Part shown: piece by piece, positions 4,208-17,288 of the stretch
Position numbering within the stretch: position 1 is the stretch's first letter
How the letters are laid out: the number at the start of each line of letters is the position of its first letter
Source of the DNA: Candidatus Endolissoclinum faulkneri L5
GTDB lineage: Bacteria; Pseudomonadota; Alphaproteobacteria; Thalassobaculales; Thalassobaculaceae
Direction of reading: 5' to 3'
NCBI RefSeq assembly: GCF_000510265.1
Contig: NZ_CP006745.1
Location: 765,654 to 829,653 of the forward strand
DNA: 64,000 bases
The notes under the pieces: model-generated
Databases searched by the model: none
Told to the model about the DNA's origin: nothing
What the model saw: the letters and a program-made list of their open reading frames with translations, nothing else
Position numbers and translations under genes: made by a program

Positions 4208-5038
4208 TTATGATTTAATGTATTCGGTCGGCTTCGATGAAGAGTAATACCTAACAGTAGTGCGACGTAACAACCAAAATACACCAAGTAAATCGATAAT
4301 TCCTACTAAAGCACGCTTACTGTTGTTATATTTAGATCTTCCTACTCTACGAGGTCGATCGTCAACTAAAACATGCAGCGTCTCATAACCGTAGCACTTG
4401 GTTAGCGCCGGCATGTAGCGATGTAAGCTATCAAAGTAAGGAAAAGCTAAAAATAATGGCCGCAGGACTACTTTAAGTCCACAAGCTGCGTCAGGGCAGT
4501 CGTCACGCAGTAAAATTTGCCGCACAAAATTGCCAATACGTGATGCAATCAAACGACCTAATCCGGCAGTACGGTGCCGACGAACACCAGCTACAAGACC
4601 AACCTTACCAACTTTTGTCGCATCTATTTGAGCAACCATTGCTAGCACGTCAGTTGGATCATTTTCACCATCACCATCTATAGTTGCCATCCAAAGAGAA
4701 TTTGCTATCATTGCCCCAGTGCGCAACGCTGCGCTTTTATTTGACCGCTTAGCATGGCGAACTAATATAATGCGTGAATCATTAGCGGCTAGTTGCTTCA
4801 CAATTTTGTCAGTTCCATCACAACTGCCGTCATCAACAACTATAACTTGTACACGATAAATTGCTCCAACCTTATCAAGCACTTCCTGCAATAAATTTGC
4901 TATGGCGCCTGCTTCATCCCGCACGGGGATAATCACACTAATCGAAGGCGCATCAATTAACTGATTATTTACCAGCATATTTTCATCATATGCTGGTAAA
5001 TAATCCGGCAATAGAAGCTGTAATCTCAAACACTTCAC
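4208..5038 (-). CDS. GT2 family glycosyltransferase, polyprenyl-phosphate sugar synthase type
   Basis: A 276-residue GT-A enzyme of the dolichol-phosphate-mannose-synthase type. The nucleotide-sugar site is visible as ISVIIPVRDEAGAI (about 33-46), VVDDGSCDGT (about 67-76) and the metal-binding DGDGEND in a typical DxD position. Only one moderately hydrophobic stretch is present near the C-terminus, so it is probably a peripheral enzyme. It would make the polyprenyl-phosphate sugar used by the adjacent GT39 transferase (inference). The start is GTG at 5038, overlapping the upstream GT4 stop by 4 bp (GTGA). An alternative ATG at 4978 lies inside one arm of a perfect 18-bp inverted repeat (4963-5005). 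The residues before the catalytic core look like a variable extension. Confidence 0.82.
   Translation of the reverse strand: MKCLRLQLLLPDYLPAYDENMLVNNQLIDAPSISVIIPVRDEAGAIANLLQEVLDKVGAIYRVQVIVVDDGSCDGTDKIVKQLAANDSRIILVRHAKRSNKSAALRTGAMIANSLWMATIDGDGENDPTDVLAMVAQIDATKVGKVGLVAGVRRHRTAGLGRLIASRIGNFVRQILLRDDCPDAACGLKVVLRPLFLAFPYFDSLHRYMPALTKCYGYETLHVLVDDRPRRVGRSKYNNSKRALVGIIDLLGVFWLLRRTTVRYYSSSKPTEYIKS
4963..5005. repeat. Perfect 18-bp inverted repeat (hairpin) inside GT2 gene
   Basis: The arms GATTATTTACCAGCATAT (4963-4980) and its exact complement (4988-5005) flank a 7-nt loop. The structure lies in codons about 12-26 of the minus-strand GT2 gene, within a non-conserved N-terminal extension. 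Base-by-base comparison shows no mismatch; pairing fails at the next base outward. Confidence 0.95.
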
Positions 5039-14327: not shown

Positions 14328-16613
14328 TTGCGCATAAAACTAATCCTTTTTTGCCAGGCGGTAGCGCTTGCCTTTGCTGTCGGAATGATTCCGACAGCAA
14401 AGGCAAAATTCGCGGAGATGAATAGGAATATAATTAAAAAAGTTGTGGTTGAGGGGACAAAACGCATCGATCCAGCCACAGTTCGTTCCTACTTGCTAAT
14501 TCAGCCTGGTGATACATTTGATTCAGAGAGACTCGATAGATCGCTCAAAGCTCTATATAGCACCGGCCTGTTCTCAGATATTACGATGTATCGTGATACT
14601 ACTAATCTATTGATTAAGGTGGTAGAAAACTCTATCATTAATCGCATTTCCTTTGAGGGAAACAGACGAATCAACGATGAAGAATTAAAGCGCGAAATTA
14701 AGCTTCGCCCTCGCTTAGTATATTCTCGTAATCAGGTACAACAGGATGTGCAACGCATAATTAAGACCTATCAACGTTCAGGATATTACGCTGTGAATGT
14801 TGAACCAAAAGTCATACAACAAAACCAAAACCGTGTTGATTTGATATTTGAAATTAAGGATGGTGAACTTACTCGAGTACAAACTATCAATTTTTTAGGT
14901 AATCGGGCATTTAGCGATGCTAATTTACGCGGAATCATTAAAACTAAGGAATATGCATTTTACAGATTTTTCACTTCTGATGACAATTATGACGCGGATA
15001 GGTTGAGCTACGATAAAGCGCTACTGCGTCAATTTTACTTAGAAAACGGCTATGCAGATTTTCGTGTACTTTCGGCCGTAGCTGAGCTTGCACCAGACGG
15101 TAAGTCATTCGTTATAACTTTTACCGTAGAAGAGGGGTACTTCTACACTTTTGGATCAAGTGACTTTGATATATCGTTGCCACAAATTGATTCTAAAGCT
15201 TTGCGCCAATTTGTCCTCACTGAGGAAGGAGAAAAATACAATGCTAATTTAATAGACGATACAATCTACGCTATCAATGACTACCTTGGCACTTTAGGAT
15301 ATGCCTTCGTGGACTTAAGCTACACAGTAAACACTGATCTTAAAAAGCGAACAATTGATGTTACATATCAAATTGGTCCAGCACGTAAGGTTTTTATTGA
15401 AAGAATTAATATAAGAGGTAATGTGCGAACACTGGACCGAATAATTCGGCGAGAGATAGGCTTTGTAGAAGGTGATTCATTTAACATCTCCCAAATGCGA
15501 ATATCTGAACAACGCATTCGCAATTTAGGATTTTTTAAAAGCGTTAATGTAAAAAATACTCAGGGTAGTGGGCCAGATCGTACCGTAGTTAATGTTGATG
15601 TCGAGGAGAGATCTACTGGTGAAATTTCTTTCGGTATTGGCTTTTCTACAACAGAATCAATAATCGGTGATATTGGTATTCATGAGAGAAATTTACTTGG
15701 ACGAGGACAAGATTTACTCTTTAACATAACGACATCAAATGTTGCCACCGAATTCGATATAGCCTTTACCGAACCTTATTTATTTAATCGTGATCTAGCT
15801 GCTGGTTTTAACCTCTTTCGTACTGAAAGAGAAAGAAAAGAAAGTTCTTATAATGAGCTCCGTTTTGGCGGAATGCTGCGCTCCTACTACACTCTACAGC
15901 CAAATCTAACGCAACAAATCAAATATCGACTTGAGCAAATAGAGATTAAAGAAGTGGACGAAAACACTGCTCAATACATCAAAGCTCAGGAAGGAACAAG
16001 GATAGTTTCTCAGTTTGGCCAAACTTTAACTTATGATAAACGTGATAACCGCCTAGATCCACGCGATGGATACATCACTCAGCTAACGAATGAAGTAGCA
16101 GGTGCTGGGGGGGACGAAAAATTTTTTCGTACTCGTATAAAGGCTGGTTACTATTATCCACTAGATGATGTTTGGGGATTGTCATTTCTAATTAATAGTG
16201 GATTTATTGTCGGTCTTGGTGAAGAAGTTTCCATCTTAGAACGATTTTTTATTGGTGCTAGTTCTTTCCGAGGCTTTCAGCGTGGTGGTGTTGGTCCACA
16301 CGATAGTGTTAGCAAAGACGCCTTAGGTGCCAACAATTATTATGTAGGATCAGTTGAGCTTGCATTTCCAAATGGCATGTCAAAAGACCTTGGTATGCGT
16401 ACATTTATTTTTACCGATTTTGGTAGCGTATGGGGCATTGACGAAAAAGATAACAAAATAGCGGATGATCCCTCAATGCGTGCAACTGTAGGATTGGGAC
16501 TATCTTTTGCCACTGCATTTGGTACAATTCGATTAGATGTAGCTGAAGTATTAGCAAAAGAAGATTTTGACGTTCCTGAAGTATTCCGCTTAAGCTTTGG
16601 TACACAGTTTTGA
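14328..16613 (+). CDS. bamA: Outer membrane protein assembly factor BamA
   Basis: BamA is the central Omp85 barrel that inserts beta-barrel proteins into the outer membrane. The 761-residue protein has a signal peptide (cleavage near 27), five POTRA domains (about 35-430) and a C-terminal barrel ending in SFGTQF with the expected terminal phenylalanine. The barrel-lumen motif appears as FRGFQRGGVGP, where VRGF is usual. The start is TTG at 14328, since no ATG fits the signal peptide. A perfect 18-bp inverted repeat encodes most of the signal-peptide core, and a G7 run lies at 16107-16113. skp, the usual next gene, is absent. BamE is encoded at 45773. Confidence 0.97.
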   Translation: MRIKLILFCQAVALAFAVGMIPTAKAKFAEMNRNIIKKVVVEGTKRIDPATVRSYLLIQPGDTFDSERLDRSLKALYSTGLFSDITMYRDTTNLLIKVVENSIINRISFEGNRRINDEELKREIKLRPRLVYSRNQVQQDVQRIIKTYQRSGYYAVNVEPKVIQQNQNRVDLIFEIKDGELTRVQTINFLGNRAFSDANLRGIIKTKEYAFYRFFTSDDNYDADRLSYDKALLRQFYLENGYADFRVLSAVAELAPDGKSFVITFTVEEGYFYTFGSSDFDISLPQIDSKALRQFVLTEEGEKYNANLIDDTIYAINDYLGTLGYAFVDLSYTVNTDLKKRTIDVTYQIGPARKVFIERINIRGNVRTLDRIIRREIGFVEGDSFNISQMRISEQRIRNLGFFKSVNVKNTQGSGPDRTVVNVDVEERSTGEISFGIGFSTTESIIGDIGIHERNLLGRGQDLLFNITTSNVATEFDIAFTEPYLFNRDLAAGFNLFRTERERKESSYNELRFGGMLRSYYTLQPNLTQQIKYRLEQIEIKEVDENTAQYIKAQEGTRIVSQFGQTLTYDKRDNRLDPRDGYITQLTNEVAGAGGDEKFFRTRIKAGYYYPLDDVWGLSFLINSGFIVGLGEEVSILERFFIGASSFRGFQRGGVGPHDSVSKDALGANNYYVGSVELAFPNGMSKDLGMRTFIFTDFGSVWGIDEKDNKIADDPSMRATVGLGLSFATAFGTIRLDVAEVLAKEDFDVPEVFRLSFGTQF
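14368..14406. repeat. Perfect 18-bp inverted repeat (3-nt loop) inside bamA signal sequence
   Basis: TTGCCTTTGCTGTCGGAA (14368-14385) and its exact complement (14389-14406) are separated by TGA. The structure covers codons 14-27, so one arm encodes the hydrophobic core and the other the cleavage region of the signal peptide. In mRNA it would be a very stable hairpin about 40 nt downstream of the start codon. Confidence 0.96.
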
Positions 16614-17288
16614 ATATTCTTTGTCCTATAAACTTTTCTTTGAAAAAACCTCTTAAATGGATAATTAGCCCTTAAAGGAGATGATAAAAATTAGATTAAT
16701 AAAAAGTGTATGATGCGCTTATTGTAAAAGCGATGATGAATTGCGAGTTACAGGCTAGTGATGTAATTAGCCTTAGAGCATAATAAATCAATTACGGAAA
16801 TTGCTCTTCGGCCAAGCATTTCAAAATATGAATACTACTGAATAAATACATAACAACATTAACTACTATAGCTAAATTTATTAGCTCCGGATTACTCAAA
16901 GGCTGCAAAATATTGCCTGTGAACGAAAAAGATTTACAACAATAGTCCTTAATCTAGCTTGGAGCTGTTTATTACACACGGTTATTATAACTTTAATAGT
17001 AAAATTATGAAGTTACAAAAATAATGCATAAGCAAAGAAAATCCTTAGTCAAACTTTCATCAGAGTAAAAAAGTTAAATAACATATTAATTTCGGTAACT
17101 AATGAAATTAATATGTTATCGATAATGAAATTAATTCCTGTTAAAGAATCCATTATTTTCTTCCAAAGAAATCAATGGATTGGATCGGGAAATGCTTTAA
17201 GTAGCTTAAATAAATGAATGGTATCAATTAAGATTGAATTGCCAATACTCATATTAACCCACTATATATGTACGGGGGGTGATAAAAC
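16614..17288. other. Spacer where skp (ompH) is expected
   Basis: Most alphaproteobacteria have the periplasmic chaperone gene skp/ompH between bamA and lpxD. Here 675 bp of A+T-rich DNA has no frame with a signal peptide or helical Skp-like pattern. It contains a perfect 16-bp inverted repeat (17078-17093 with 17104-17119, loop 10). A G6 run just before lpxD acts as or overlaps its ribosome-binding site. Confidence 0.6.
17078..17119. repeat. Perfect 16-bp inverted repeat, 10-nt loop
   Basis: ATAACATATTAATTTC (17078-17093) pairs fully with 17104-17119. It is in the bamA-lpxD spacer. No T-run follows on the plus strand, so it is not a clear terminator. Confidence 0.9.

Follow-up and report, generated by a model that had tools for sequence, protein, structure and literature searches.

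Quasipalindrome correction by template switching is known from phage T4, E. coli, yeast and humans (PMC8604942, PMC8794818). In the Ripley model of quasipalindrome mutation, as in the lacZ QP reporters and the thyA hotspot of E. coli, an imperfect inverted repeat becomes a perfect one, and the same change is seen in the signal-peptide codons of bamA in the tunicate symbiont Candidatus Endolissoclinum faulkneri L5. The accompanying signature, in which bulge bases of one arm are lost and changes are clustered in one arm (PMC6357072, PMC8604942), is likewise found in bamA. Unlike reversion in the E. coli reporters, the bamA change is a fixed difference between wild lineages and affects an essential gene.

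Similar rewriting has been described in other coding and RNA genes. In working coding genes of Saccharomyces cerevisiae, arm homogenisation alters several adjacent amino acids (Abraham and Hazkani-Covo 2021), as it does in bamA, where a two-codon loss is added and the bacterium, a symbiont, lacks RecA and MutS. RNA hairpins that template switching has formed and maintained show a perfect stem, and changes that look compensatory, with no selection acting on the individual pairs (Monttinen and Loytynoja 2022); bamA shares these properties, although its site is protein-coding DNA rather than an RNA gene. In the coding palindromes of Nematomorpha mitochondria both arms encode working protein, again as in bamA, but those palindromes reach 284 bp, whereas the coding arms in E. 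faulkneri measure 12-26 bp.

Amongst bacteria, an excess of inverted repeats in prokaryotes was earlier ascribed to quasipalindrome correction (discussed in PMC4060949), and endosymbionts are over-represented among genomes of high inverted-repeat frequency (PMC10434271). A parallel is Blochmannia, whose reduced symbiont genomes are rich in palindromes that are mostly intergenic, as in E. faulkneri (PMC3017870). The authors of that study suggested selection, whereas the strain comparison in E. faulkneri points to mutational origin and turnover. No report of E. faulkneri palindromes was found in a literature search. The bamA case is a known mutational mechanism that is unusually abundant in E. 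faulkneri.

The bamA palindrome and its history

The window, i.e., the 64-kb stretch of the L5 genome that was analysed, includes a gene order that we take, from the translations, to contain rseP, bamA, lpxD, fabZ and lpxA. The bamA product matches Omp85 (PF01103; 227 bits, E 1.9e-67), and because this match is full and the 761-aa frame is open, the gene is considered intact. BamA is 84% identical to that of strain L2 (NC_019566), the nearest relative, and 71-73% identical to those of free-living congeners; the TTG start is kept in L2 and the congeners, and the start and N-terminus align. The L5 genome is a single contig of 1,518,636 bp (published as 1.51 Mbp, PMC3851785). Feature coordinates are collected in Table 1.

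Table 1. Features of the bamA locus, in window coordinates
Feature	Position	Strand	Basis or remark
bamA, Omp85 family outer-membrane assembly factor	14328..16613	+	open frame, 761 aa
Signal peptide, 26 aa, ending in AKA	14328..14405	+	sequence features and alignment
Left arm, probable rewritten copy, 19 nt	14368..14386	+	exact reverse complement of right arm
Left arm compared with L2: 5 substitutions and a 6-nt deletion	14368..14386	+	
Site of 6-nt (two-codon) loss relative to L2 (ACGGTA in L2)	14375..14376	+	placement ambiguous by a few nt
1-nt spacer, symmetry axis, same axis in L2	14387..14387	+	
Right arm, probable template, 19 nt	14388..14406	+	gap-free homology to all relatives

The perfect inverted repeat at 14368-14406 (TTGCCTTTGCTGTCGGAAT-G-ATTCCGACAGCAAAGGCAA) consists of 19-nt arms, 100% complementary, around a 1-nt spacer. 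It spans nt 41-79 of the bamA coding sequence (codons 14-27) and codes for LAFAVGMIPTAKAK, the tail of the BamA signal peptide. An earlier note on this DNA had described the same object as 18-bp arms with a 3-nt loop, which is the shape the repeat would take as an RNA hairpin; the 19-bp form is the fuller one. No other perfect inverted repeat in the window is as long as this one, nor is any other within a protein-coding frame in the sampled 400 kb of L5. Being inside the frame and followed by AATTCGCGGAGA, it was rejected as an intrinsic terminator.

On the same axis, L2 carries an imperfect hairpin in which a core of 9 bp is followed by a 6-nt bulge and then by a further 5 pairs (GCTATTGGA-GTTGG-TCCAATAGC; bulge ACGGTA, outer pairs CCTTC/GAAGG). 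From the TTG start to a conserved F/I there are 30 codons, gap-free, in L2 and the four free-living congeners, and 28 in L5; since L2 and the four congeners have one common length, the L5 form is the derived one. The 6 nt missing in L5 alone are exactly the bulge of L2, and the L5 arms are fully matched. That the bamA palindrome arose from a pre-existing quasi-palindrome made perfect, with loss of the 6 nt, is well supported by these alignments. In the congeners the site has weak symmetric complementarity (9-12 of 19).

This polarity also bears on the idea that a mobile element or a palindromic repeat, like the Rickettsia palindromic elements, entered bamA. The repeat is indeed palindromic and in frame within a gene, and the check proposed in the earlier note, an alignment of bamA 5' ends, had implied that an arm might be an insertion. 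Yet bamA in L5 is 6 nt shorter than the genes of its relatives, not longer, the other palindromes examined have unrelated sequences, and no mobile elements are reported for E. faulkneri (PMC3851785). We therefore reject an element insertion, the least probable of all the explanations considered.

We give a probability of about 80% to the bamA palindrome being a mutational scar from quasipalindrome template switching rather than an element. The history that we infer would begin with an ancestor of L2 and L5 that carried an imperfect inverted repeat in the signal-peptide codons of bamA. In the L5 lineage, a nascent strand would have folded back or crossed over so that one arm templated the other, and the mismatches and the 6-nt bulge would have been copied out in one event, leaving a perfect 19-bp palindrome. 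In the simplest form of this scheme the left arm would be the copy and the right arm the template: the right arm aligns gap-free (5 differences to L2, 6 to congener L009) and the left arm requires a 6-nt gap, so re-synthesis of the left arm on the right is the simplest reading.

Such a scar should show perfect arms longer than chance in the derived allele, a less than perfect version centred on that axis in a related allele, and differences of the kind left by copying one arm. The L5 allele has 19-bp arms, a length absent from all simulations, L2 has the imperfect repeat, and the differences are as from copying one arm, with loss of the bulge included. A rewrite by template switching, one of two possibilities raised in the earlier note, is thus well supported by a palindrome that is specific to L5, polarised by L2 and the congeners and part of a genome-wide pattern.

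The rewritten signal peptide still looks functional from its sequence, with a hydrophobic core and an AKA cleavage motif. Its n-region is positive, the A-x-A at -3/-1 is found as in L2 and three of the four congeners, and the 12-aa hydrophobic stretch has a mean Kyte-Doolittle value of 2.51 (1.90-2.59 in the relatives). As the frame is kept and the peptide appears export-competent, selection seems to have tolerated the rewrite.

The comparison of the two strains also contains a feature that could be read differently. Each arm has 5 sites that are different in L2, and 2 stem pairs (3 with another gap placement) differ on both sides. A single L5 event accounts for these changes only where drift in the right arm preceded its copying; failing that, the arms must have been homogenised more than once or been under selection for pairing. 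A single event after drift, two rounds of homogenisation and selection for pairing all fit the two strains.

Selection for pairing would imply an RNA hairpin that slows down translation of the BamA signal peptide, or fine-tunes it, and that is kept in both strains by compensatory changes, the other possibility raised in the earlier note. Besides the pairs changed on both sides, what speaks for it is the predicted fold, at -32.5 kcal/mol in L5 (z -7.8) and -19.5 kcal/mol in L2 (z -2.8). The comparison with codon-shuffled controls that the note had proposed did find both strains more stable (0/300 in L5, 2/300 in L2). The four congeners, however, have no excess structure at the site (z 0.5, 1.6, 0.5 and -0.7); the structure, present in L2 and L5, is not conserved across the relatives as a conserved cis-regulatory RNA hairpin would be. 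The palindrome also runs to a 1-nt spacer, further than an RNA loop can pair, and searches of Rfam gave sub-threshold matches only, mostly to animal microRNA precursors. We regard this explanation as improbable. A hairpin function could possibly have been gained in the symbiont lineage, but nothing requires it.

If the bamA palindrome is a scar of template switching, it offers a clean natural example in which part of an essential gene was rewritten, with the polarity set by a sister strain and congeners. It also cautions against taking every perfect hairpin in a symbiont gene for a regulator, even where its changes look compensatory, since such hairpins can be scars.

Abundance and distribution of palindromes in L5 and L2

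Chance expectation was obtained from two nulls, a first-order Markov model of 400 kb of L5 (20 runs) and shuffling of synonymous codons within L5 genes (40 runs). Under the Markov model, arms of at least 10, 11 and 12 bp are expected 17, 5.3 and 1.65 times per 400 kb, an approximately 3-fold drop per bp, and no arms of at least 18 bp appeared in the 20 simulations of 400 kb. By extrapolation from these runs, a 19-bp arm is expected about 1e-4 times per 64-kb window. Codon-shuffled L5 genes yielded an expectation of 0.33 arms of at least 12 bp, and no arms of at least 16 bp in the 40 sets. Since neither null ever gives such arms, the bamA repeat is not due to chance.

The same controls bear on whether ordinary substitutions and one deletion completed a chance hairpin. 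The partial hairpin of L2 and the weak complementarity in the congeners would have offered a starting point, but arms of this length were never reached in either control and the event repeats across the genome, and we hold this route to be very unlikely. The earlier note had estimated that an 18-bp arm should arise far less than once per thousand windows of this size. This stands against a random null; it is misleading for the L5 genome itself, which has 17 repeats with arms of at least 19 bp per 400 kb, an abundance that the note had missed.

Perfect inverted repeats were counted in 400-kb samples of each strain, taken as stretches. Those with arms of at least 18 bp number 24 in L5 and 22 in L2 (5.5-6 per 100 kb); the arms reach 29 bp and many have zero spacer. 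Elsewhere, arms of this length were found 3 times per 400 kb in a free-living congener, twice in 200 kb of a 1.7-Mb genome, and not at all in 200 kb of an unrelated, AT-rich 0.63-Mb reduced genome of the same class in which recA is present.

An assembly or sequencing artefact would be a further way to obtain such repeats, as fold-back artefacts are known and palindromes cause difficulties in assembly (PMC3017870). Against this, a 39-nt palindrome is well within 101-bp paired reads, and the L5 assembly used k values of 61-67 and was validated by mapping the reads (PMC3851785). Additionally, the bamA frame is intact and the separate L2 assembly shares both the axis and the genome-wide excess. 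An artefact is therefore even less credible than completion by ordinary substitutions.

Most of the palindromes in L5 and L2 sit in decayed intergenic DNA: 22/24 in L5 and 20/22 in L2 (arms of at least 18 bp) lie outside conserved frames, in DNA that makes up only about 45% of the genome. Amongst arms of at least 14 bp, spacers of 0-2 nt, useless as an RNA loop, occur in 15/50 cases in L5 and 22/55 in L2. A T-tract lies beside only 2/50 in L5, and intrinsic terminators were rejected as a genome-wide class on this count. Coding palindromes are spread all along genes rather than near starts, which, like the far greater richness of non-coding DNA in palindromes, argues against the translational hairpin. 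Under template switching, such events would occur genome-wide and would persist best in non-coding DNA.

Coding repeats with arms of at least 12 bp number 13 (8 in L5, 5 in L2), and every one of them is imperfect in the sister strain. In several of them the sister-strain differences are bunched in one arm, i.e., 1 versus 5 changes per arm in a TRAP-transporter-like gene and in an exchanger-like gene of L5, and 3 versus 0 at another place in the TRAP-like gene in L2 (gene names were read from translations). Averages of the more-changed and less-changed arm were left out as a test, being biased by the picking of the larger number.

Intergenic arms have diverged from the sister strain about as much as the DNA that flanks them. 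Pairs in which both bases changed show no excess in these arms: 21 and 30 were observed, about chance level, the expectation being about 27 of 741 where 21 were observed (33% divergence squared, one third complementary). Because both-sided changes are no commoner than expected, intergenic palindromes turn over rather than being conserved, and it is not a general rule that one palindrome is homogenised repeatedly.

Repair genes absent from the symbiont

RecA and MutS were not found in L5 or L2 and are present in all four free-living congeners; the large subunit of ExoVII was not found in L5 or L2 and is present in the two congeners searched. SbcD and ExoI were rejected as lost guardians: they are also missing or below the cut-off in the searched congeners and thus cannot explain the contrast. 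Single-strand exonucleases reportedly suppress quasipalindrome mutation in E. coli, according to work of the Lovett laboratory. The loss of recA and mutSLH has been stated for E. faulkneri (PMC3851785).

Loss of RecA, MutSLH and ExoVII is likely the reason that palindromes accumulate, a relation that is correlative and drawn from one lineage. Induced template-switching in E. coli is largely RecA-independent (PMC6357072), and RecA loss therefore need not be the cause. We see about even odds for the broader proposal that loss of RecA, mismatch repair and ExoVII unleashes a chronic perfection of quasipalindromes in a reduced symbiont; perfect palindromes would build up as a mutational signature across the genome, rewriting coding sequence, signal peptides among it, and mimicking selected RNA structure. 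If general, such chronic perfection would account for symbiont palindromes elsewhere ascribed to selection. With scars this abundant in a repair-depleted genome, it becomes testable whether palindrome load is linked to the loss of repair genes, a question that was raised for Blochmannia and answered differently there.

Other inverted repeats in the window and genome

The perfect inverted repeat that ranks second in length within the window, at 4963-5005, has 18-bp arms and a 7-nt spacer and lies outside conserved frames, without a T-tract. The long gap between bamA and lpxD (16614-17288), which is probably decayed DNA, holds a 16-bp perfect inverted repeat at 17078-17119. The L2 copy of bamA carries a different coding palindrome, perfect over 15 bp, at about codons 295-307; it is imperfect in L5, so that bamA has two separate coding palindromes in two strains.

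A repeat at about 734.04 kb of L5 was dropped from the coding count, as it precedes the mutM start. A long perfect hairpin stands just before this start in both strains, at about 734044-734083 in L5 (18 bp) and about 719118-719151 in L2 (17 bp), and in at least two of its pairs both bases differ between the strains. If any repeat described here is a conserved leader or terminator structure, this hairpin is the best candidate.
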